The position numbers and the translations under genes are program-made. The notes below the pieces were generated by a model that saw only the letters and a list, made by a program, of their open reading frames with translations, was not told the origin of the DNA and did no database searches. Positions 2,142-28,907 of a DNA stretch of 30,269 nucleotides are shown piece by piece (position 1 is the first letter of the stretch; every line of letters starts with the position of its first letter). Source of the DNA: a virus. The DNA is taken from positions 1 to 30,269 of IMG/VR virus record IMGVR_UViG_3300008107_005139. One strand, given 5' to 3'.

Positions 2142-3497
2142 ATGTCTGCAATAACAAGAAATAGAGAACTTTCCCAACTTGGGTCCTTTATTTACATCGA
2201 TGATGTAACAAAAAACATTGGAATTGCAACAGACTTAACTCCTAACGTTGGAATTGGAACTACAAATGCTACATCAAAACTTTCTGTAGTTGGTAATGTC
2301 AATATTTCGGGTGTTGTAACGTCATCCAATTTCTATGGTGGATTCATAGGAACCGCAACTAATGCTATCACTGCAAATTATGCAACAGTTTCTGGATTAT
2401 CAACAGTTGCGGTTGGTATCGAAACTACAAGTAGCGTCAATACTTCTGGTATTATTACGGCATCTGCATTTTATATTAATGATGTACTACTGATTAATCC
2501 GGAGTTTTCAACTTGGTCTTATACTGGTTCTGCTGGTATTGCCAATACAGTATATCGTTTAGGTGATGTTGGAATTGGTACTTCAATTGGAGTTAATGAA
2601 AAACTGACAGTGAATGGCAATGTTTCTGCAAATCGATTCACTTCAACAGTTGCATCAGGCACTGCTCCATTTACAGTTTCATCAAGTACCCTTGTTACAA
2701 ACCTCAATGCGGACTTCTTAAGAGGTAAAACATCACCCTTAGGTGATATTGTTGGTACAACAGACACTCAAACTATTACAAATAAAACTCTAACGTTTCC
2801 AATCATAACATCAATTTCTAATGGTGGAACAGTTACTTTACCATCTTCAACAACAACTTTAATTGGTAGAGATACAACTGATACTCTTACAAATAAAAGT
2901 ATTGCCGCAAGTGGAAATACTATTTCTGGAATTACAAATGCAAATCTTTCCGGATCTGCTGGAATTACAAATGCAAACTTAGCAAATTCCACAATATCTG
3001 GAGTTTCTCTTGGAAGTAGTCTTGCATCATTAAGTTTTAGTGGTTTTATTAGTGCCACTGGTTCTTACAATGGTTTTACTGCAGTTTCTGTTTCTGTAGC
3101 GGCAACAACAGCAAATACTGCAAATAGTATAGTTGCTCGTGATTCTTCCGGAGACTTTACTGCAGGATCTATAAATTGTTCTAACTTAACCGCAACATTT
3201 GCTGTTACTGCAGCAGATATTAACTCAACTAGTGATCTTCATCTTAAAACTAACGTTAACACAATTGAAAACTCCCTAGATATAGTCAATTCGTTAAGAG
3301 GAGTTTCTTTTGATTGGAAGATGAATCATAAAAAGTCTTATGGCGTCATCGCACAAGAACTTGAACAAATCCTTCCCGATTTAGTTACAACTCAACAAAA
3401 TAAATCTGTAAATTATAATGGATTGGTTGGAGTTTTAATTGAAGCAGTCAAAGAACTTTCTGCAGAGGTTGAAGAACTTAAGAAAAAGGTTTCATAA
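2142..3497 (+). CDS. Tail fibre-like structural protein with C-terminal S74 chaperone domain (451 aa)
   Basis: A virion protein without collagen repeats. The body (about residues 1-350) is low-complexity, Thr/Ser/Asn/Gly-rich and beta-type, with recurring phrases such as VGIGT, DTLTNKS and NANLSGSAGITNANL, typical of phage fibre shafts. From S364 the sequence S-D-L-H-L-K369 opens an S74-type chaperone domain with the family's conserved GVIAQELE and VNYNGLVGVLIEAVKEL segments, ending in a coiled coil. The start is supported by AGGAG at 2131-2135, 6 nt ahead of ATG. It lies 18 nt after the first fibre gene and is probably in the same late transcript. The exact part of the virion is unknown. Confidence 0.82.
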   Translation: MSAITRNRELSQLGSFIYIDDVTKNIGIATDLTPNVGIGTTNATSKLSVVGNVNISGVVTSSNFYGGFIGTATNAITANYATVSGLSTVAVGIETTSSVNTSGIITASAFYINDVLLINPEFSTWSYTGSAGIANTVYRLGDVGIGTSIGVNEKLTVNGNVSANRFTSTVASGTAPFTVSSSTLVTNLNADFLRGKTSPLGDIVGTTDTQTITNKTLTFPIITSISNGGTVTLPSSTTTLIGRDTTDTLTNKSIAASGNTISGITNANLSGSAGITNANLANSTISGVSLGSSLASLSFSGFISATGSYNGFTAVSVSVAATTANTANSIVARDSSGDFTAGSINCSNLTATFAVTAADINSTSDLHLKTNVNTIENSLDIVNSLRGVSFDWKMNHKKSYGVIAQELEQILPDLVTTQQNKSVNYNGLVGVLIEAVKELSAEVEELKKKVS

Positions 3498-6614: not shown

Positions 6615-9600
6615 ATGGCTGATCCCATCATAAGAGTTAAAAGATCTACTGTTCAAGGAAAAATACCAACCAACGAACAATTAGGTCTTGGAGAAATAGC
6701 TATTAACCATTATGATGGTAAAGTTTTTATTCGCCAAGATACTGGTGGAGTAGGAGTAGGAACAACAGTTATTTCTATTGGCAATCAAGGACCTCAAGGG
6801 GCACAAGGTGTTCAAGGTGTTCAAGGTGTCCAGGGTGCTATAGGAGCGCAAGGTGCTCAGGGAGCACAAGGTTTTCAAGGTGCTCAAGGTGCTCAGGGTG
6901 ATGTTGGAGCACAGGGTTCACAAGGTTTTCAAGGTGTCCAGGGTTCTCAGGGATCTCAGGGGGAACAAGGTGTTCAAGGTGCTCAGGGATTCCAGGGAGA
7001 ACAAGGTGTTCAAGGTGTTCAAGGTGTCCAGGGTTCTCAGGGATCTCAAGGAGAACAAGGTGCTCAAGGATTCCAGGGAGTCCAGGGTGCTGTTGGAGCA
7101 CAAGGATCTCAAGGTGTCCAGGGAGCACAAGGAGAACAAGGATTTCAGGGTGCTGTTGGAGCACAAGGATCTCAAGGTGTCCAGGGTTCTCAGGGATCTC
7201 AAGGAGAACAAGGATTTCAAGGTGCTCAGGGGGAACAAGGATTTCAGGGTGTTCAAGGTGCCCAGGGAGTCCAGGGTGCTGTTGGAGCACAAGGATCTCA
7301 AGGTGTCCAGGGAGCACAAGGAGAACAAGGAGCACAAGGTGTCCAGGGAGCACAAGGAGTTCAAGGTGCTGTTGGAGCACAAGGAGTCCAGGGTGCTCAA
7401 GGTGTCCAGGGAGCACAAGGAGAACAAGGATCTCAAGGTGTCCAGGGTGCTGTTGGAGCTCAAGGTGCTACTGGACCAGTAGCAGGATCTGCAAATCAAA
7501 TCGTTTATAAAGATGGATCTAATAATCCCACTGGATCTGCTAATTTAACTTTTGATGGTTCTAATTTATATGTTGGTGGGAACATCACAATCGGTGGTAC
7601 ATCATCATACATTGTATCTAATGAACTTAGAATCAGGGATAAAGACCTCGTAGTTGGTATTGTTACGGATGCTCTTGGTAATGATGTTTCTACAGATACA
7701 ACAGCAAATACTGGTGGTATTGCGATTGCTTCTACCGAAGGTAGTCCATTAATTAGTTTAACTTCTGGCGGAGAAGTAACACCAGATACTTATAAGCAGT
7801 TAATGTGGTTTAAGTCCGGTAGTTTTACTGGTCTGAATACTGATGCTTGGATATTTAATTATGGTGTAGGTATTGGATCCACACAAATTCCTTTAGGAGT
7901 GAGACTTGCTGCAGGTGGTATGCAAGTTACTGATAGCACTCTAAATATTCCACAACTCAATATTTCGGGAATATCAACTTTTAGTGGTCAAATACAACTC
8001 AATTCTTCATTAAAAGATTTTTATGGTCAAGTAGGTACTGGTTCTTCAGTTCTTGTTTCTACTGGTGCAGGTGTTTCTTGGGCTAATATTTCCCAAGTAG
8101 CATTACAAGGACCTCAGGGTGCTCAAGGAGTTCAAGGTGCTCAAGGAGTTCAAGGTGCTCAAGGAGTCCAGGGTGCTCAAGGAGTCCAGGGTGCTGTTGG
8201 TGCTCAAGGAGCACAAGGAGTTCAAGGTGCTGTAGGTTCCCAAGGATTCCAAGGAGTCCAGGGTGCCCAGGGAATTCAGGGAGCACAAGGTGTTCAGGGT
8301 GCTCAGGGTGCTCAGGGTGCTGTTGGGGCTCAAGGAGTCCAGGGGGCCCAGGGAATTCAGGGAGCACAAGGTGTTCAGGGTGCTGTTGGTGCTCAAGGTG
8401 CTCAAGGAGTCCAGGGTGCTGTTGGGGATCAAGGTGCTCAAGGTGTCCAGGGAGCACAAGGTGTCCAGGGTGCTCTAGGAGCACAAGGTGCTCAGGGTCG
8501 TCAGGGTGCTCAGGGAGCACAAGGAGCACAAGGTGTCCAGGGTGCTCAGGGAGCACAAGGTGCTCAAGGTGCTCAAGGTGCTCAAGGAGTTCAAGGAGCA
8601 CAAGGTGTCCAGGGTGCTCAGGGTGTTCAGGGTGCTGTAGGAAATAAAGGAGGAACCCCATATACATTCAGTACGACTACAACTGATGCAGATCCCGGTA
8701 ATGGAGTTATCGCATATAATAATGCAACAATAGGTTCAGTAAATACAATTTTTATTGATAATAATGACTCTAACTCAAATGTACAAACAACTTGGTATGA
8801 TACTTGGGATGATTCGACCAACACTCAAAAAGGATATTTAATAATAACAGGAGCAACAGCAGCAAGTACTGTTGTAAACACTTGGAGTGTAACTGCTATT
8901 GCTGCTGCAGCAGGATATTATAAAATTACAGTTTCTCATATTTCCGGTTCATTACCTGCTAATGGCGCAGCACTAACTGTAGAATTCTCAAGAACTGGAG
9001 ACCGAGGAGCACAAGGAGCACAAGGTGTCCAGGGTGCTCAGGGTATTCAGGGAGCACAAGGTGTCCAGGGTGCTCAGGGTATTCAGGGAGCACAAGGTGT
9101 CCAGGGTGCTCTAGGAGCACAAGGTGCTCAGGGTCGTCAGGGTGCTCAGGGAGCACAAGGAGCACAAGGTGTCCAGGGTGCTCAAGGTGTCCAGGGTGCT
9201 CAAGGTGTCCAGGGTGCTCAAGGAGTTCAGGGAGCACAAGGTGTCCAGGGTGCAACGGGACCTTCAACAACAGTATCCGCATCAGGAACTCAAGCAGCAA
9301 CCACTTTTTACCCAGTTTTTGTTGCCGGAACTGGAAATCAAACCCCATCTATTGGTATTCAAGGTGCTTCAATTTTAAGTTACACTCCTTCAACAGGAAC
9401 TTTAACTACAACTGACTTTAATTCCACTTCAGATATAAAATTAAAAACCAATATTAAACAAATTACAGATGCTTTAGTTAAACTGCTCAAACTAAACGGA
9501 GTAACGTTTAACTGGATTGAAACAAATAAACCTTCAGTTGGCGTCATTGCACAAGATGTGGAGAAAGTATTACCAGAACTTGTAAAACAAACTGATCCCA

Positions 9601-9713
9601 AAACAGTCAATTATGATGGTTTAATTGGTCTTGTTATTGAAGCAATCCGAGAGCAACAAACAGAAATAAATACCATCAAGACAGAAATTGAGAACTTAAA
9701 GAATGAAAGGTGA
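6615..9713 (+). CDS. Very large collagen-like tail fibre with S74 chaperone domain (1032 aa)
   Basis: The N-terminus (IIRVKRSTVQGKIP ... LGEIAINHYDGKVFI) resembles the virion-anchoring domain of the 794-aa protein. Three Gly-X-Y stretches, mainly GAQGVQ with almost no proline, occupy about residues 58-290, 499-677 and 795-881. Two beta-type inserts separate them. The first (about 291-498) contains a segment shared with the 794-aa protein; the second (about 678-794) contains WYDTWDDSTNTQKGYLIITG. A C-terminal S74 chaperone domain starts at S939-D-I-K-L-K944 and ends in a coiled coil. The gene's last 11 nt overlap the first oxygenase gene of the modification operon, tying fibre and modification genes together. 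No clear Shine-Dalgarno sequence is visible before ATG. Confidence 0.88.
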   Translation: MADPIIRVKRSTVQGKIPTNEQLGLGEIAINHYDGKVFIRQDTGGVGVGTTVISIGNQGPQGAQGVQGVQGVQGAIGAQGAQGAQGFQGAQGAQGDVGAQGSQGFQGVQGSQGSQGEQGVQGAQGFQGEQGVQGVQGVQGSQGSQGEQGAQGFQGVQGAVGAQGSQGVQGAQGEQGFQGAVGAQGSQGVQGSQGSQGEQGFQGAQGEQGFQGVQGAQGVQGAVGAQGSQGVQGAQGEQGAQGVQGAQGVQGAVGAQGVQGAQGVQGAQGEQGSQGVQGAVGAQGATGPVAGSANQIVYKDGSNNPTGSANLTFDGSNLYVGGNITIGGTSSYIVSNELRIRDKDLVVGIVTDALGNDVSTDTTANTGGIAIASTEGSPLISLTSGGEVTPDTYKQLMWFKSGSFTGLNTDAWIFNYGVGIGSTQIPLGVRLAAGGMQVTDSTLNIPQLNISGISTFSGQIQLNSSLKDFYGQVGTGSSVLVSTGAGVSWANISQVALQGPQGAQGVQGAQGVQGAQGVQGAQGVQGAVGAQGAQGVQGAVGSQGFQGVQGAQGIQGAQGVQGAQGAQGAVGAQGVQGAQGIQGAQGVQGAVGAQGAQGVQGAVGDQGAQGVQGAQGVQGALGAQGAQGRQGAQGAQGAQGVQGAQGAQGAQGAQGAQGVQGAQGVQGAQGVQGAVGNKGGTPYTFSTTTTDADPGNGVIAYNNATIGSVNTIFIDNNDSNSNVQTTWYDTWDDSTNTQKGYLIITGATAASTVVNTWSVTAIAAAAGYYKITVSHISGSLPANGAALTVEFSRTGDRGAQGAQGVQGAQGIQGAQGVQGAQGIQGAQGVQGALGAQGAQGRQGAQGAQGAQGVQGAQGVQGAQGVQGAQGVQGAQGVQGATGPSTTVSASGTQAATTFYPVFVAGTGNQTPSIGIQGASILSYTPSTGTLTTTDFNSTSDIKLKTNIKQITDALVKLLKLNGVTFNWIETNKPSVGVIAQDVEKVLPELVKQTDPKTVNYDGLIGLVIEAIREQQTEINTIKTEIENLKNER
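8448..9184 (+). repeat. 101-bp perfect direct repeat, copies 636 bp apart, in frame
   Basis: Positions 8448-8548 and 9084-9184 are identical over 101 bp, and their spacing of 636 bp is a multiple of three. Both copies lie in Gly-X-Y coding DNA and flank the second beta insert of the fibre. Recombination between them would remove 212 codons, including that insert, without a frameshift. Confidence 0.85.
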
Positions 9714-15849: not shown

Positions 15850-15879
15850 TTGACATGAATAGTTGATTGTGTTTATAAT
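15850..15879 (+). promoter_or_regulatory. Consensus sigma-70 promoter driving the DGR
   Basis: TTGACA at 15850-15855 and TATAAT at 15874-15879 match the bacterial sigma-70 consensus at all 12 positions, with an 18-bp spacer. Transcription would start near 15886-15888, about 105 nt ahead of the DGR target gene. It begins 2 nt after the stop of the upstream glycosyltransferase gene. Such promoters are read by host RNA polymerase without phage late factors, so the retroelement could be on early in infection or at low level at all times. Confidence 0.8.
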
Positions 15880-15910
15880 CTGCCTTGTCAAGGTTGAAAG
15901 TTAATTTAAT

Positions 15911-15918
15911 TATAAATA
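15911..15918 (+). promoter_or_regulatory. Perfect late promoter box TATAAATA upstream of the DGR target
   Basis: An exact match to the T4 late promoter consensus, 74 nt before the GTG start of the variable tail-fibre-like gene. Together with the sigma-70 promoter it suggests early plus late expression of the cassette. Confidence 0.6.
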
Positions 15919-15949
15919 AGTTATAGTTAAGCCGAGTGGAGACACGAAG

Positions 15950-15988
15950 ATGGCATCAAGGAAACTCTTTCTTATTGCTGGAGGGTGA
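15950..15988 (+). CDS. Possible 12-aa leader ORF (MASRKLFLIAGG)
   Basis: ATG 15950 to TGA 15986-15988, ending 3 nt before the GTG start of the DGR target and spanning the target's Shine-Dalgarno site (15980-15985). If translated, it would couple initiation of the target gene to the leader. It could also be a remnant or chance; there is only a weak ribosome site (GAAG) before it. Confidence 0.25.
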   Translation: MASRKLFLIAGG

Positions 15989-15991
15989 TAA

Positions 15992-16591
15992 GTGGCAATT
16001 AAGATAAGTAGCAACACTGTTATTGATAACAGTAGAAATTTAACTTGTATTGCTACTGCTTGCGCTGATTCCGCAGGTGGAAATTGGATAGCAACTCAAG
16101 CAGAAGCAGAAGCAGGTTCAGATAATACTCAACTTATGACCCCATTAAGGGTTTCACAAGCAATTACGAAGTTAGCAGGTATGAAAGACGCAGACATTAA
16201 CTGGTCAGCATGTAATGTAGGATGTTCCGTAAGAGGTGGTGGTAATGTAATCAGAAAAACGGGTGGAGTTATCTGGATTGTAGCGCCATCAACAGCAGAA
16301 GCATCTTCTACATGGCCTATGGGTTATTGTAATGGAAATTCTGGATCAACACCAAACCAAGCACAAAGAATCACTGGTCGTTCTGGATGGTTTATTCCAG
16401 ATTTAGGTATGCTTCAATGTGCTTATGCTTGTAGATCTTATTGGGATACTTATTCCTCGGGCTGCTACTGGAGTTCTGCTGAGTTCACTACCAGCCATGC
16501 GTTCGCTGTGTACTTTGGTAATGGCTGCACGAGCTGCAACATTAAGTGCTTCAGCAGCTGTGTTCGTCCGTTTCGGGTCGTGTGCTATTGA
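15992..16591 (+). CDS. DGR-diversified tail fibre-like receptor-binding protein (199 aa)
   Basis: The N-terminal part (AIKISSNTVIDNSRNLT; WIATQAEAEAGSDNTQLMTPLRVSQAI) carries the repeat typical of phage tail fibre proteins. The C-terminal part (about residues 100-199: GRSGWFIPDLGMLQ, CYWSS, CVRPFR) resembles the DUF1566/Lcl_C C-type-lectin-like fold used as DGR display domain. The variable repeat covers residues 155-195, reaching within four residues of the end. The protein has 13 cysteines, four of them produced in the variable repeat by AAC to TGC changes. The start is GTG with a strong GGAGGG site at 15980-15985, 6 nt upstream. It probably forms the variable tip that touches the host surface. 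Confidence 0.88.
   Translation: MAIKISSNTVIDNSRNLTCIATACADSAGGNWIATQAEAEAGSDNTQLMTPLRVSQAITKLAGMKDADINWSACNVGCSVRGGGNVIRKTGGVIWIVAPSTAEASSTWPMGYCNGNSGSTPNQAQRITGRSGWFIPDLGMLQCAYACRSYWDTYSSGCYWSSAEFTTSHAFAVYFGNGCTSCNIKCFSSCVRPFRVVCY
16453..16577 (+). repeat. DGR variable repeat (VR)
   Basis: Aligns without gaps to the template repeat at 17126-17250. From 16454 to 16576 there are 28 substitutions, all at template adenines: 14 to G, 11 to T, 3 to C. The 47 template adenines in that stretch are thus about 60 percent changed, while no C, G or T position differs. Nineteen codons change, including 17 of the 19 AAC/AAT codons. The adenine-free 3' end (16558-16577) is identical in both copies and is the likely initiation-of-mutagenic-homing (IMH) site. 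Confidence 0.97.
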
Positions 16592-16632
16592 ACTTTGTAC
16601 TTTGTTTTTTGTATTTTGTAACGAGATTTTTT

Positions 16633-16968
16633 ATGGTAGAAGAACTGAAAATATATAAAGATACAAGTGAATTAGTTAAAAGAGTTTTTATAATAGTTAA
16701 AAATTTCCCTAGAGATTATAAGTATACTATTGGATCTAGAATTCAAAATACTGCATTAGATTGTGTTGAGTTGATTTATAAAGCATCTAGACATAAGCAA
16801 AAAGAGAAAGACTTAGATGAGTTAGTATCTTCTTTAGATTTTTTATCTTATTTAATTAGAATTTCTAAAGACATGAATATTGTGACAGAAAAACAATATT
16901 CTCTTTATATTGAAAGAAGTATTCCATGCGTAAAACAAGCATCAGGATGGTTGAGGTCTGCTAAATAG
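16633..16968 (+). CDS. avd: Avd, DGR accessory variability determinant (111 aa)
   Basis: A small, basic, all-helical protein of the size of known Avd proteins. In that family it forms a pentamer of four-helix bundles that binds the DGR reverse transcriptase and template RNA and is needed for mutagenic retrohoming. The typical helix pair is visible (SELVKRVFIIVKNFPRDYKYTIGSRIQNTALDCVELIYKAS), and the C-terminus is basic. The frame is open upstream to 16546, but that part runs through the end of the target gene, so ATG 16633 is chosen; CGAGA lies just upstream. Its place between VR and TR matches the BPP-1 order target-avd-TR-RT. Confidence 0.88.
   Translation: MVEELKIYKDTSELVKRVFIIVKNFPRDYKYTIGSRIQNTALDCVELIYKASRHKQKEKDLDELVSSLDFLSYLIRISKDMNIVTEKQYSLYIERSIPCVKQASGWLRSAK
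16961..16967 (+). promoter_or_regulatory. Possible late box CTAAATA before the template RNA
   Basis: Overlaps the avd stop codon, about 160 nt ahead of the template repeat. It would allow separate late transcription of template RNA and RT. A 7-bp inverted repeat (GTTGAGT at 16968-16974, ACTCAAC at 17020-17026) follows directly. Confidence 0.3.
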
Positions 16969-17250
16969 TTGAGTCATTCATAATGAGCAGAATATTATTT
17001 CGTCAAGAAATAGTAGTGTACTCAACTCACGCGATTTTCATACCTTAATAGGGTAAAGGTTTTAAATATATTTTTAAAACACTTTCTTCTAAAGAGAAAC
17101 TTGTGAATGAAAATCAAATTTGTTGTTCCTCGAACAACTACTGGAGTTCTACTGAGAACAATACCAACAATGCGTACAATGTGAACTTTAATAATGGCAA
17201 CACGAACAACAACAATAAGAACAACAACAACTGTGTTCGTCCGTTTCGGG
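16969..17250 (+). ncRNA. DGR template RNA region (limits approximate)
   Basis: The gap between avd and the RT gene holds the template repeat and about 155 nt of upstream sequence with no convincing gene. In studied DGRs the template RNA includes sequence on both sides of TR, reaching into avd and RT, and folds to present the template. The inverted repeat GTTGAGT/ACTCAAC at 16968-17026 could form the base of such a fold. The RNA ends are not visible in the sequence. Confidence 0.6.
17126..17250 (+). repeat. DGR template repeat (TR)
   Basis: The invariant template for the variable repeat. It is dominated by AAC/AAT codons (19 in the aligned 41) placed exactly where the display domain varies; adenine-directed mutation of AAY gives 15 residues and never a stop. 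It ends 11 nt before the RT start codon. The last 20 nt contain no adenine and match the VR end perfectly. Confidence 0.97.
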
Positions 17251-17261
17251 AGTGAGAAGTT

Positions 17262-18302
17262 ATGAATGACATCACATTTGAAGAAGTTGTAACAGCATAT
17301 TACGACTGCAGAAGAAATAAAAGAAATACATCACAACAATTAGAATTTGAGTTTCATCTAGAACAAAATCTTTGGAAACTCTATGAAGAATTAAATCAAG
17401 AAATTTTTACTCCAGAAGCACATAATTTTTTTATTATAACTTACCCCAAACCAAGAGAAGTTTGGTGCTCAAATTTTAGAGATAGAATAGTTCACCACTT
17501 AATTTATAATAGAACAAATTATATTGAGAATGACTATATTGATAGCACTTTTGCATGTTTAAGAGGAAAAGGAACTTTAAGGTGTGCTCAAAAAGTACAA
17601 AAAACGATGAGAAATTTGTGGAAAGAAAAAGATGACTACAGATTTCTTCATGTAGATATTGCAAATTTTTTTGTTTCAATTGATAGAGAAATTATCAAAA
17701 AACAACTATATCCAAAAATTGAAAATAAAACTACTATCAAACTTATAGAAATATTTTTAAATCAAGTTCCAACAGAAAATTATTACTATACTGGAGATCC
17801 AAAATTAAGAGAGTTGATTCCAGATAGAAAATCACTATTTGGGAAGTCTACTGGTCTTACTATTGGAAACTTAACATCTCAAATTTTTGCCAATCATTAC
17901 TTAAATGAATTTGATTGGTATTGTAAAGAAAATATATCTCAACATTATTTTAGATATATGGATGATTTACTATTTTTTATACTTAAAGATCAAAAAATAT
18001 ATCAAATTATTGATGATATTAATGATTATTTGGCAACTTTAAATATGACTTTAAATTCGTCAAAAACAAAACATAATAAACTTGAGCATGGTGTAAATTT
18101 TGTTGGATACTTTATTAGACCATTCTGCAAATATGTAAGAAATTCAACTAAACAAAGAGCAAAATTGGCAACAAACTGGAAATCAATTAATTCTTATTAT
18201 GGACTCATGAGACAAGCAAACTGTTACAATTTGAGAAAAAAGATTGCTATTCAAAACAATCTAAATATGATAAACTATGAAAAGATGAATCAATTACCAT
18301 GA
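17262..18302 (+). CDS. DGR reverse transcriptase (346 aa)
   Basis: Copies the template RNA into adenine-mutagenised cDNA that replaces the variable repeat. Visible RT motifs are D132 in HVDIANFF (first catalytic Asp), I201-G-N-L-T-S-Q207 (DGR-type motif 4, where other group II-like RTs have QGxxxSP), and Y232-M-D-D235 (catalytic pair). The thumb region contains NFVGYFIRP. The length is usual for DGR RTs. GAGAAG just upstream of ATG is the ribosome site. The stop overlaps the ATG of the next oxygenase gene (ATGA at 18299), so the downstream operon continues directly. Confidence 0.95.
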   Translation: MNDITFEEVVTAYYDCRRNKRNTSQQLEFEFHLEQNLWKLYEELNQEIFTPEAHNFFIITYPKPREVWCSNFRDRIVHHLIYNRTNYIENDYIDSTFACLRGKGTLRCAQKVQKTMRNLWKEKDDYRFLHVDIANFFVSIDREIIKKQLYPKIENKTTIKLIEIFLNQVPTENYYYTGDPKLRELIPDRKSLFGKSTGLTIGNLTSQIFANHYLNEFDWYCKENISQHYFRYMDDLLFFILKDQKIYQIIDDINDYLATLNMTLNSSKTKHNKLEHGVNFVGYFIRPFCKYVRNSTKQRAKLATNWKSINSYYGLMRQANCYNLRKKIAIQNNLNMINYEKMNQLP

Positions 18303-19725: not shown

Positions 19726-21438
19726 ATGAACATTTTAGGACTTTATGGTGGATTTAACTGGAATCCAAATAAATCTGCAGACAAAGATAACCTTGCAACT
19801 TGGACTCATGATGCAGGTGTAACATTAATTTCTCATGGAAATCATGTTACTAGTATTTCGGAGGAAAGACTAACCAGAATCAAATATGATGGAAATTTTC
19901 CACAAAATTCAATAGATTATTGCCTATCTGCTGGCAATCTTTCTTATGAAGATATTGATTTAGTTTGTGTTCCTTCAATGTGCTTAACTATTTGGTATAA
20001 GCAATATTATGAAGGAACTATACATGATAAATTAAATTCAATGTTTCCTGATGCAAAAATTAAATTTGTCTCCCATCATTTAAGTCATGCAGCATCTGCA
20101 GTATTCTCTTCTAATTTTAATGAAGGTTCTTTTTTAGTTCTTGATGGTGCTGGTTCACTTTTGTATGCTCATAACTACCAAGATGTAAAACATGTTGAGA
20201 CTAATTCAATAGGATATTTTAATAAAGAAAAAGGAATTTTTAGATTTTTTCCAGGTCTTCCAAATGTCAATGAATTTGGTTCTTATTATCACTCACTATC
20301 TCATAAAATCTACTGTGAAAAAATACAAAAACAAATAAGTGGTTATGATGAAAAATATAGAGAATCTTGGGATGGCAAAATCATGGGTCTTTCTGCCTAT
20401 GGAAGTCATTTAAAATTCACAGAAGAACTTAAAGATTATCAACTTTCAAAAGATCTTGCTTATGAAGATTTGCCCTATGTAACTTTTGATGGTAGACCTT
20501 ATAAGGAAAATCATACTTTTAAAAATGCCGATGAAAAGGCATACATTCTTCAAAAAAACTTTGAGTGTGCTTTGTTGGATTATGTAACTGAACTTAAAGA
20601 AAAGTCCTATCTTGATGATTATGTTTGCCTTGCTGGTGGTTCATTCCTAAATGTTCTTGGAAATAGTGTTCTAAAACAAAGTGGATTATTCAAAGATATT
20701 CATGTTCCGCCATATCCTAATGATGTAGGACTTCATTTTGGTGCTGCTTGTTTTGGTGCATTTCAAAATAAAGAAGAAATTAATTTACCAAATAATATTG
20801 CACTTCTTGGAAAGGAATATTCCCAAGATATTATTGAACAAGAACTTCAAAAGTTTGAATTAAATTATAAAAAATATGAGAACTTTGAAGAACTTTGCGA
20901 ATTTACGGCACAAGAACTCAACAAAAACAAAATCATTGGTTGGTTCCAAAATAGAAGTGAATTTGGTCCAAGAGCATTAGGTTCTAGATCACTTCTTATG
21001 CATCCAGGTCCAGCAAAAAATAAGGACATTATGAACTCCAGAGTAAAGCATAGAGAATACTGGAGACCTTTTGCTGGAATTGTTCTTGAAGAACACCTTA
21101 ATGATTATTTTGAAGAAAACTTTTGTTCTCCTTATATGCTTTACTCTCTTACAGTAAAGGAAGAAAAGAGAGATGAGATTGCTGCAATTACTCATGTAGA
21201 TAATACTTGCAGAATTCAAACAGTCACTCAAGAACTTCAACCAGAAGTCACTACACTGATTCAAAAATTCAAAGAGGTGTCTGGAATTCCTGTGATTCTT
21301 AATACTTCATTTAATGACAATGGAGAACCTATTGTAGAGACACCAGAAGATGCCATAAGAGCATTTAATAATCTTGATATTGATTATTTGGTCATTGGAA
21401 ATTATATTGTTAAAAAAAGTGAGATTGCTTACTCATGA
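19726..21438 (+). CDS. NodU/CmcH-type carbamoyltransferase (570 aa)
   Basis: Carbamoylates a hydroxyl, usually of a sugar, using carbamoyl phosphate and ATP. The N-terminal Kae1-like domain shows HDAGVTLI, SEERLTR, and metal-binding H117-H-L-S-H121, followed by VLDGAGS (D140). The C-terminal YrdC-like domain shows FGPRALGSRSLL and REYWRPFAGIVLEE, then THVDNTCRIQTV and NTSFNDNGEPIVETPEDAI. The length is normal for the family. It sits between a sulfotransferase and a glycosyltransferase, overlapping the latter by ATGA, so the acceptor is probably a sugar made by this operon. Confidence 0.9.
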   Translation: MNILGLYGGFNWNPNKSADKDNLATWTHDAGVTLISHGNHVTSISEERLTRIKYDGNFPQNSIDYCLSAGNLSYEDIDLVCVPSMCLTIWYKQYYEGTIHDKLNSMFPDAKIKFVSHHLSHAASAVFSSNFNEGSFLVLDGAGSLLYAHNYQDVKHVETNSIGYFNKEKGIFRFFPGLPNVNEFGSYYHSLSHKIYCEKIQKQISGYDEKYRESWDGKIMGLSAYGSHLKFTEELKDYQLSKDLAYEDLPYVTFDGRPYKENHTFKNADEKAYILQKNFECALLDYVTELKEKSYLDDYVCLAGGSFLNVLGNSVLKQSGLFKDIHVPPYPNDVGLHFGAACFGAFQNKEEINLPNNIALLGKEYSQDIIEQELQKFELNYKKYENFEELCEFTAQELNKNKIIGWFQNRSEFGPRALGSRSLLMHPGPAKNKDIMNSRVKHREYWRPFAGIVLEEHLNDYFEENFCSPYMLYSLTVKEEKRDEIAAITHVDNTCRIQTVTQELQPEVTTLIQKFKEVSGIPVILNTSFNDNGEPIVETPEDAIRAFNNLDIDYLVIGNYIVKKSEIAYS

Positions 21439-23205: not shown

Positions 23206-24840
23206 ATGAATATTCTATCAATAAATTATGGTCTTCATGATGCTTCTGCTTGTATTTTAAAAGATGGTGAAGTTGCTGTTTATTTTAAAGAAGAAAGATT
23301 AAGTAGATCAAAAAGAGATACAGACCCTGTATTGTCTATTATTGATTGTATTAAAAACTTCAAAGAAAAGATTGATTATGCTCTTGTTATTTCATATCCA
23401 AATGCAAAAAAATATGCAAAATTGACCAATAAGTTATCAAATACGACAATTGAAAATCTAGTTGAGTTTAGTTACAATCATCATTTGTGTCATGCAAGTC
23501 TTGCATTTTATAATAGTGGATTTGAAAAATCTATTGTTGCAGTTGTGGATGGACAAGGTTCAATTTATGCGGATAGTCTAGCAGAATGTGAAACAGTTTA
23601 TCTTGTATCATATCCAAATAATTTTGAGTGTTTAATTAAAAATTTATCAGTTAATAAAGAACATTCCCATTTTGAAGTGGATGAAAAATACGATAGAAAA
23701 ATTATTCCTCACAAAAATTACGAATGTAATGTCAATCAAAAAGAAGGTGGTATAGTTAATGTTTATAATACTGCATCAGTTTTAATTTCTCAGGGAGTTC
23801 TTGAGAATGGAAAAACTATGGGATTGAGTTCTTATGGATCCAAAATAGACTATCCAAATTTTTTCAATAAAAACTCTCAACCAATTTGGGATTTATTCAC
23901 GGATAAAAATTCTCACGAAAGGTTGTTTAATGATCATGAAGATAAAGTAACCAAAGAACTTACAGAAGAAAACCATAAATTCTATGCAGATTATGCTTAT
24001 GAGGTTCAAATTCAAACTCAAGAAGCAGTTGGAAATTTAATTGAAAAGGCAATTCAAAAAAGTGGTTGTAATAATGTTTGTGTAGTCGGTGGTTATGGAA
24101 TGAATATTGTTGCTAATTATTATTACACACAAAGATTTCCTAATGTGAATTTTTATTTTGAACCTAATGCAGACGATGGAGGTCTTCCTATTGGTGCTGC
24201 AATGTTGTATCATCACGCTCTCACAAAAGACAAAACAATTAGACCATTAAAAACTACGGCATTTCATGGTGTTCCTTATAGTGTTTCCCAATACAAAGGA
24301 AAAACCGCATCAATAGAGGAGATTGCGAATCTTCTGCAACAAGATAAATCAGTTGCAGTATATACTGGACTTGCTGAAGCGGGTCAAAGAGCACTAGGAA
24401 ATAGATCAATTTTATTCAATGCACTCAATCCAGATGCAAAGAATATCGTGAACAAAATCAAGAAAAGAGAGTGGTATAGACCATTTGCTGCAATGGTTTT
24501 AGAAGAGGACGCAAATATCTATTTTGATATGGGGAGAATAAAATCAAGTCCTTTTATGACAATCTCTTTTCCTGTAAGAGAAGACTATGTTAATATTATT
24601 TCAGGAGTAACTCATGTAGATAATACTTGTAGAATACAAACAATTTCTAAGAAGAATGGATATACTTATGATCTTCTTCAGGAATTTAAAAAACTAACAG
24701 GTCATGGAATAATTTTAAATACAAGTTTTAATCTTGCTGGAGATCCATTAGTTGAAACTCCAGAAGATGCCTTTAAAACATTAAATCAGTCTTCTCTAGA
24801 TTATTTGTGGTTTGAAGAAACCCAACAATTATTTCGATAA
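23206..24840 (+). CDS. Second carbamoyltransferase, NodU/CmcH type (544 aa)
   Basis: The family features are an N-terminal NYGLHDASACILKDGEVAVYFKEERLSR, metal-binding H92-H-L-C-H96, D115 in VVDGQGS, and a C-terminal QRALGNRSILFN, REWYRPFAAMVLEED, THVDNTCRIQTI and NTSFNLAGDPLVETPEDA. The usual GPRALG is GQRALG here. It is clearly diverged from the first copy (19726-21438), so the two probably act on different positions or sugars rather than being a recent duplication. It starts 2 nt after the GT9-like gene. Confidence 0.88.
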   Translation: MNILSINYGLHDASACILKDGEVAVYFKEERLSRSKRDTDPVLSIIDCIKNFKEKIDYALVISYPNAKKYAKLTNKLSNTTIENLVEFSYNHHLCHASLAFYNSGFEKSIVAVVDGQGSIYADSLAECETVYLVSYPNNFECLIKNLSVNKEHSHFEVDEKYDRKIIPHKNYECNVNQKEGGIVNVYNTASVLISQGVLENGKTMGLSSYGSKIDYPNFFNKNSQPIWDLFTDKNSHERLFNDHEDKVTKELTEENHKFYADYAYEVQIQTQEAVGNLIEKAIQKSGCNNVCVVGGYGMNIVANYYYTQRFPNVNFYFEPNADDGGLPIGAAMLYHHALTKDKTIRPLKTTAFHGVPYSVSQYKGKTASIEEIANLLQQDKSVAVYTGLAEAGQRALGNRSILFNALNPDAKNIVNKIKKREWYRPFAAMVLEEDANIYFDMGRIKSSPFMTISFPVREDYVNIISGVTHVDNTCRIQTISKKNGYTYDLLQEFKKLTGHGIILNTSFNLAGDPLVETPEDAFKTLNQSSLDYLWFEETQQLFR

Positions 24841-28031: not shown

Positions 28032-28907
28032 ATGCCTAAAGGCATAATTTACTGTGCTCATTGTATTCCAACAGGAAAAAAATATATTGGAAAAACACTT
28101 AAGTGTTTAGAGAGAAGAAAGTCCTCACACAAAAGTGCTGCAAAGTATGAAAAAAGAAATTTAAAATTTTATAATGCTATAAAAAAATATGGATGGAATT
28201 CTTTTATATGGGGAGTAATTGAAGAATGTGATGTAGAATTACTAAATGAGCAAGAAGTATTTTGGATAGACAAATATAATACCTACTATAAAGGATACAA
28301 TTCTACTTTAGGAGGTGACGCAACAAATCCAACTTGCTTTAAAAAATTTAAATTTAAATCTCCTAATGGGGAAATATTAGAAGGAGAAAATATTGCAGAA
28401 TTCTGTAGAAACTATAATTTAAGTTCTTCATCAATGGGATGTGTTTTATCTGGAAAAAGAAAATCTCATAAGGGTTGGACATTACCCGAAACCAAAGTTT
28501 ATGGATATGAATTAAGAACACTCAAAATTGAAAGAGAATTTACAATACAAAGTCCTGATGGTACGATTATAACTGGTAAAAATGTAACAAAATTTTGTAA
28601 TCAATATAATTTAAACCCTGCTAGTATAATTAATGTTTTAAATGGAAAGTATAAATCATATAAAAAATGGAAACTTACAAAAACAAATTTAATAAGTCAT
28701 AAATCTAGAATTGAAAAAATATCAAAAGAATTTGTTATTATGAGTCCCGATCAAACTATTATAAAAGAAAAAAATATTAAAGAATTTTCTAAAAAATATA
28801 ATTTAATTCCTGGAGAAATATCAAGAGTTTTGTCTAAAAAAATAAAATCCCATAGAGGTTGGAAATTACCAACAATAGATACAAATCAAAACGTGAGCTG
28901 GGATTAG
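28032..28907 (+). CDS. GIY-YIG homing endonuclease with three repeat DNA-binding modules (291 aa)
   Basis: The N-terminal nuclease domain (about 1-95) shows G4-I-I-Y7, K17-Y-I-G-K21, conserved Arg near 28-29 and E75 in NEQEVFWID. The C-terminal part has three similar 45-residue modules (about 107-151, 170-215, 234-279). Each has SP(N/D)-G/Q at the start, an F-C/S-x-x-Y-N-L helix and a K-S-H/Y-x-x-W-x-L end, as in NUMOD-type repeats that read the homing site. The gene is more AT-rich in its codons than its neighbours and lies free-standing between a terminator and an unrelated operon, with no intron visible around it. It is a typical selfish gene of T4-like phages. Confidence 0.85.
   Translation: MPKGIIYCAHCIPTGKKYIGKTLKCLERRKSSHKSAAKYEKRNLKFYNAIKKYGWNSFIWGVIEECDVELLNEQEVFWIDKYNTYYKGYNSTLGGDATNPTCFKKFKFKSPNGEILEGENIAEFCRNYNLSSSSMGCVLSGKRKSHKGWTLPETKVYGYELRTLKIEREFTIQSPDGTIITGKNVTKFCNQYNLNPASIINVLNGKYKSYKKWKLTKTNLISHKSRIEKISKEFVIMSPDQTIIKEKNIKEFSKKYNLIPGEISRVLSKKIKSHRGWKLPTIDTNQNVSWD

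Follow-up and report, generated by a model that had tools for sequence, protein, structure and literature searches.

A complete, probably functional diversity-generating retroelement in a putative T4-like cyanophage

Does a T4-like cyanophage carry a diversity-generating retroelement (DGR) that rewrites one of its own genes, and what would the product of that gene do for the virus? The question is raised by a locus in the IMG/VR virus record IMGVR_UViG_3300008107_005139, the whole 30,269-nucleotide stretch of which was analysed here and is referred to as "the window". Few marine viruses have been studied as thoroughly as the T4-like cyanophages, and it is an open question how they keep pace with host surfaces that change; with a DGR, part of them would have a built-in source of binding variants. 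The best explanation of the evidence as a whole is that a T4-like cyanophage has a complete DGR, probably functional, which diversifies a lectin-like, fibre-associated protein, a reading to which we assign a probability of about 90%.

The cassette and the virus that carries it

The window holds a complete DGR, consisting of a target gene with its variable repeat (VR), the accessory gene avd, a template repeat (TR) and a reverse transcriptase (RT) gene (Table 1). This is what the initial annotation had proposed, and both the completeness and the order of the parts are borne out by profile matches and coordinates. The range given there for the locus, 15850 to 18302, does contain the cassette, but its first 140 bases (15850 to 15990) are a non-coding leader. 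Avd matches Pfam bAvd (2e-18) and the PHROG family "Avd protein of DGR" (4e-24), as well as NCBIfam DivGenRetAVD (2e-17), the last of these under that model's cutoff. The RT matches RVT_1 and phrog_1423 (5e-76), and its two motifs listed in Table 1 align with those of Brt. Among solved structures, it matches PDB 8ub7, "Reverse transcriptase" (E 4e-26), which belongs to the series 8ub7-8ube that we take to be the BPP-1 complex. Classification of the RT as a retron, group II intron or DRT enzyme was rejected, as all three model scores were under their cutoffs. When the window was scanned with the TR, no second VR came up, and Rfam gave no match in it either.

Table 1. Features of the DGR cassette (positions in the window)
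Feature	Position	Strand	Remarks
NATAAATA late-promoter-like site	15911..15918	+	sole such site between 9665 and 25155
DGR target gene, GTG start	15992..16591	+	fibre-type N-terminus and C-terminal Lcl_C/DUF1566-like, putative lectin domain with VR
VR (variable repeat)	16453..16577	+	gapless alignment to TR
Invariant VR 3' end, IMH-like, TGTGTTCGTCCGTTTCGGG	16559..16577	+	19 nt common to TR
7-nt tandem-repeat tract, ACTTTGT-like	16592..16622	+	right behind target stop codon; BPP-1 has a GC-rich hairpin there
Avd accessory protein	16633..16968	+	profile matches; dN/dS 0.07 vs sister virus
Structured RNA leader 5' of TR, covarying stem-loops	16984..17115	+	covariation count
Helix closing around TR, 5' arm	17026..17032	+	pairs with 17250-17256; two pairs with two-sided changes
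TR (template repeat)	17126..17250	+	123/125 identical to sister virus
Helix closing around TR, 3' arm	17250..17256	+	pairs with 17026-17032
DGR RT	17262..18302	+	motifs GLTIGNLTSQ and YMDD; dN/dS 0.09 vs sister virus

The window itself holds few marker genes, and T4 core genes are absent from it; it encodes a SprT-like protein 66% identical to that of S-SM2 and a glycosyltransferase/methyltransferase 59% identical to that of S-CRM01. More can be learned from a sister virus (L003/L004 in IMG/VR; L and G numbers are contig labels), which is about 89% identical to the window over 5 kb. The 125-kb contig of this sister, G002, matches Synechococcus myophages (megablast) and carries psbA with 99% amino acid identity to that of S-SM2 (tblastn), together with gp43, uvsX, gp41, gp61, nrdA/B, gp32, gp59, gp53 and phoH. 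The identities of these genes to S-SM2 range over 50-85%, e.g., gp43 (70%), uvsX (81%), nrdA (84%) and gp32 (65%), and are Kyanoviridae-like. The major capsid gene, gp23, gave no match on G002, a result that is uninformative as the control search was equally empty. Judged from this gene content, the assignment to the T4-like cyanophages (Kyanoviridae) holds, directly for the sister and, because the two are close kin, also for the window. From the window, it had been only a guess.

Scans with RT alignments revealed RTs 61-74% identical to the window RT in L024/L105, L025, L104, L106, L107 and L027, the next match being at 42%. T4-type core genes are present on the contigs of L105, L106, L107 and L027; L024 would be T4-type by kinship, as it is 99.98% identical to L105, and the contigs of L025 and L104 are too short for these genes to be assessed. 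No psbA was found on the fragments of these relatives, and their hosts are therefore less sure than that of the sister. The tree places the eight cyanophage RTs together, in a fully supported group that lies within a set dominated by phages and prophages of Pseudomonadota. A clade uniting the cyanophage RTs with three cyanobacterial plasmid DGR RTs, the only ones sampled on the host side, was rejected (p-AU 0.0007), and the tree thus gives no sign of an origin from the sampled cyanobacterial DGRs. Among the 50,697 phage records of INPHARED, 89 contain a relative of the window RT, none of which is named Synechococcus, Prochlorococcus or cyanophage. Two of the records, Shewanella phage vB_Sb_QDWS (OK094664.1) and Hujiaoplasma phage zrk29-1 (OP650936.1), agree in size (both 47902) and in their RT match, and are possibly one genome under two host names.

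The target gene, its expression and a proposed mechanism

The target gene is situated downstream of collagen-like fibre genes, and residues 22-62 of its product match phrog_910, a tail collar fibre family. For the C-terminal domain, Lcl_C (DUF1566) matches were obtained in eight of nine homologous targets (best 1.7e-5), with the window's own copy under the curated cutoff, and the target profile matches PDB 8q4e HbP1 (E 9e-11). As an AlphaFold model of the target, made with nine homologues, had a mean pLDDT of 37, which is too low for use, we infer the lectin fold of this domain from sequence profiles. The VR occupies the 3' end of the gene. We regard the product as a candidate, and a probable one, for a tail-tip protein. 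In L024 (3003-3772), a fibre-type N-terminal part and a lectin VR part are encoded by two ORFs with an ATGA overlap, which are fused in the window. Just upstream of the target start, positions 15929-15991 carry a leader with CCGAGTGGAGACACGAAGATGG and a 12-codon ORF, and the CCGAGTGGAGACACGAAGATGG motif also precedes a fibre-module gene in L003 and L024.

The motif NATAAATA, presumably the late promoter of T4-like cyanophages, occurs seven times on the plus strand of the window, each time with an ORF starting 28-81 nt downstream of it, and the minus strand has none (binomial P 3e-7). One of these sites lies 81 nt upstream of the target, and in L106, such a site is found within 35 nt of each of three targets. 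No NATAAATA is present between the target and the RT gene, so that late co-transcription of the cassette would be the simplest reading.

We propose that an RNA spanning avd and the TR would fold so that a stem-loop leader and a closing helix keep the TR between them, and that the RT together with Avd would copy the TR into cDNA, making errors at adenines. This cDNA would then replace the VR, the 3' end of the small lectin-like, fibre-associated gene. Because the TR has no adenine at the third codon position, and most of its adenines stand in AAC or AAT codons, nearly every mutation would alter an amino acid, and the altered residues would lie on the presumed ligand-binding face. Since the cassette stands behind a late-promoter-like site, diversification would take place in late infection, and the variants would be spread among the progeny. 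Most likely, the target product helps to select the host surface bound by the virion, and its variation might thereby affect host range.

A different role for the target is less likely, though it deserves consideration: the DGR may work on a protein that does not bind a receptor and instead decorates the capsid or serves another purpose, e.g., binding to particles, to other phages or in the host interior. The targets of the relatives, which are small stand-alone lectin-like ORFs of ~139-170 amino acids with no evident fibre part, would fit such a role, as would the VR copy downstream of the RT gene in L027 and L106, which sits among sugar-modification genes. However, the target in the window has a tail-collar-fibre-like N-terminus and follows the collagen-like fibre genes, and according to the environmental DGR catalogue (PMC8144416), most viral DGR targets in several RT clades are proteins of the tail. 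Recognition of the host surface is the role that we favour for the window target.

Template and variable repeats in the window, the sister virus and the clade

The TR and the VR, located by a repeat finder and by direct diagonal alignment, form a 125-nt pair at an offset of 673, and the initial annotation was right to describe this alignment as gapless. From 16454 onward, the TR consists of 47 adenines and 77 other bases. The VR differs at 28 of the adenines (A to G 14, A to T 11, A to C 3) and at none of the 77 other sites. The earlier count of 28 adenine differences is thus reproduced, whereas the 76 non-adenine positions counted at that time become 77. Homology between the repeats dies away a few bases 5' of 16453; in a wider 131-nt block, which takes in three non-adenine mismatches at this fading 5' edge, 28 of the 31 differences are at adenines (hypergeometric P 6e-13). 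In the reading frame of the VR, the TR adenines number 24, 23 and 0 at codon positions 1, 2 and 3, respectively, and 19 of the 41 TR codons are AAC or AAT.

Comparison with the sister virus shows how the two repeats have fared since the lineages separated. The TRs are 98.4% identical, with two differing sites in the compared block, and the target part before the VR is 78.5% identical. The VRs differ at 25 of 47 adenine-templated sites versus 1 of 74 others (Fisher P 6e-12), and all of the 20 VR codons that differ do so nonsynonymously. The lone non-adenine difference in the VR, at 16457 (where the window has T and the sister A), is mirrored by a like difference at TR position 17130, which indicates that sequence moved between the TR and the VR after the lineages split. 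This two-lineage comparison strengthens the earlier view that the VR is a footprint of past mutagenic retrohoming. At the same time, the dN/dS values of the RT and Avd (Table 1) indicate strong purifying selection.

It is improbable, in our judgment, that the DGR is a relic that diversified the VR in the past and no longer works in the window virus. Such a loss would agree with the identical VRs seen in three near-identical contig pairs from different assemblies (window/L002, the latter from IMG/VR and differing only at 16001; L003/L004, which show no mismatch; L024/L105, whose two mismatches fall outside the VR), and these pairs do count against ongoing rapid change. Decay also occurs in the clade, as in L104 (5169-5300, 5863-5990) the adenine-rich run is gone from the TR, and the TR and VR differ at many non-adenine sites; the pattern is one that overwriting by a VR-like copy, or decay of the TR, would leave. 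In the window, however, the RT is intact with its YMDD motif, the RT and Avd have been kept under selection, the TR has stayed 98% identical to that of the sister while the VR diverged, and the VR contains a TR change specific to its lineage, all of which argue for a DGR that would be active at present. Public read data could test this activity at once.

The adenine rule also holds in L024 (with one non-adenine mismatch), L025, L027, L106 and L107. L106, a T4-like phage, has one TR and three VRs (1103-1236, 1669-1802 and 7998-8131) in three lectin-like genes, two of the VRs being in tandem targets before Avd and the third ~5.5 kb after the TR, beyond the RT gene. These VRs differ mutually at 22, 15 and 22 sites, all of them at TR adenines. 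In L027, the VR lies downstream of the RT gene. The three VRs of L106 were considered as a unique trait, which was rejected because multiple VRs are common in the related DGR group. An ordinary duplication followed by random mutation and selection on the binding face could yield solely amino-acid-changing differences, yet we give it next to no credence, as it is contradicted by the unchanged non-adenine sites and the P value on the wider block, by the same rule in five other viruses and among the three VRs of one virus, and by the RT and Avd genes adjoining the repeats.

RNA structure, the site behind the VR and relation to known DGRs

The 157 nt between Avd and the TR are well conserved across the cyanophage clade. 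RNAalifold, applied to seven sequences, predicted leader stem-loops and the helix closing around the TR (Table 1). By direct counting, 97.2% of cells were paired and 17 pairs had two-sided changes versus a shuffled mean of 7.3, none of 500 shuffles being as high. Sliding the pairing partners abolished this covariation signal, a control that is lenient because the structure itself comes from the alignment being tested. The two-sided changes in the TR RNA are substantive. When the leader motif TTCAYAATGAGCAGAAT was searched for in IMG/VR, the matches beyond the known DGR contigs came without an RT or Avd and were taken as chance.

In BPP-1, the VR must be followed by a GC-rich hairpin whose loop is GRNA, a feature reported as conserved in phage DGRs (PMC3240598). 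No such GC-rich hairpin was found within about 75 nt after any cyanophage VR, in a scan that detects the one of BPP-1. Its absence does not exclude these elements from the DGRs, since 252 of 361 VRs of related DGRs are also without it, and for the same reason, it was rejected as a cyanophage speciality. In the next 45 nt, the cyanophage VRs are followed by a T-rich tandem repeat with a period of 7 (autocorrelation 0.53 versus 0.34 shuffled, z 9.4, from a set of ten VRs that are not independent), which is absent after the TR and further downstream. A period of 8 was obtained for 127 dereplicated hairpin-less VRs of related DGRs (0.42 versus 0.27 shuffled, z 25), and 40 related VRs with a hairpin show the period-8 repeat too. 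In L028-L253, which are phages and prophages of Pseudomonadota, a T-rich period-8 repeat is seen in the 45 nt after each VR and is absent after the TR. No earlier description of a post-VR tandem repeat was found in open-access text.

Tentatively, this branch of DGRs might recognise the VR not, or not only, via a hairpin but via the T-rich repeat of 7-8 nt, which with the TR-closing helix would make for a different distinction between donor and target; the role of the repeat as a mark of the VR and not the TR is a guess. Covariation in the TR RNA and the repeat behind the VR provide concrete elements for studying how DGRs choose template and target.

The anatomy of the cassette is that of a known DGR type. 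As in the DGR of Bordetella phage BPP-1 (mtd-avd-TR-brt), the order is target/VR, Avd, TR and RT, the TR/VR differences are at adenines only, and the RTs are homologous (30% identity). Unlike BPP-1, which is a temperate Bordetella phage, the window represents a putative T4-like cyanophage, its RT falls in a different branch, its target has an Lcl_C-type lectin domain and not Mtd, and its VR is followed by a tandem-repeat tract without a GC-rich hairpin. The nearest DGRs of catalogued phages are of the types found in Burkholderia phage Magia, Shewanella phage vB_Sb_QDWS and Pseudomonas phage phPA-G (RT 37-40%, Avd 32%). Like the window, these have short targets, mostly no hairpin and a tandem-repeat tract after the VR; they often have 2-3 VRs and, unlike the window, are mostly found in integrase-bearing or prophage contexts in Pseudomonadota. 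In the DGR loci of these types, the leader motif that is conserved across the cyanophage clade gave no match. In cyanobacterial DGRs (Anabaena, Acaryochloris and Microcystis plasmids), the RT is only about 30% identical to the window RT and has formylglycine-generating-enzyme-type genes nearby, with Avd annotated in two of three. DGRs of crAss-like and Bacteroides phages, which belong to other hosts and have distant RTs (about 23-30% identity), diversify phage tail proteins (PMC7290462, PMC6199706).

DGRs on apparently lytic phages have already been reported (PMC7981956), and the environmental DGR catalogue may already contain these contigs unremarked. No description of a DGR in a T4-like cyanophage was found in the open-access papers searched. 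What seems to be new is the T4-like cyanophage DGR clade, the structured TR RNA and the post-VR repeat.

Several other genes in the window were also noted. A carbamoyltransferase gene (19726-21438, Pfam) and a second look-alike, identified by eye (23206-24840), lie in the fibre region, surrounded by genes for glycosyltransferase, methyltransferase and 2OG-Fe(II) oxygenase; the group may serve glycan or virion modification. By eye, the gene at 28032-28907 resembles that of a homing endonuclease of the GIY-YIG type whose DNA-binding modules are repeated. The genes at 126-2123, 2142-3497 and 6615-9713 encode fibre proteins of a collagen-like or repetitive kind, and these share a similar C-terminal end that, by eye, resembles an S74-type self-cleaving chaperone.
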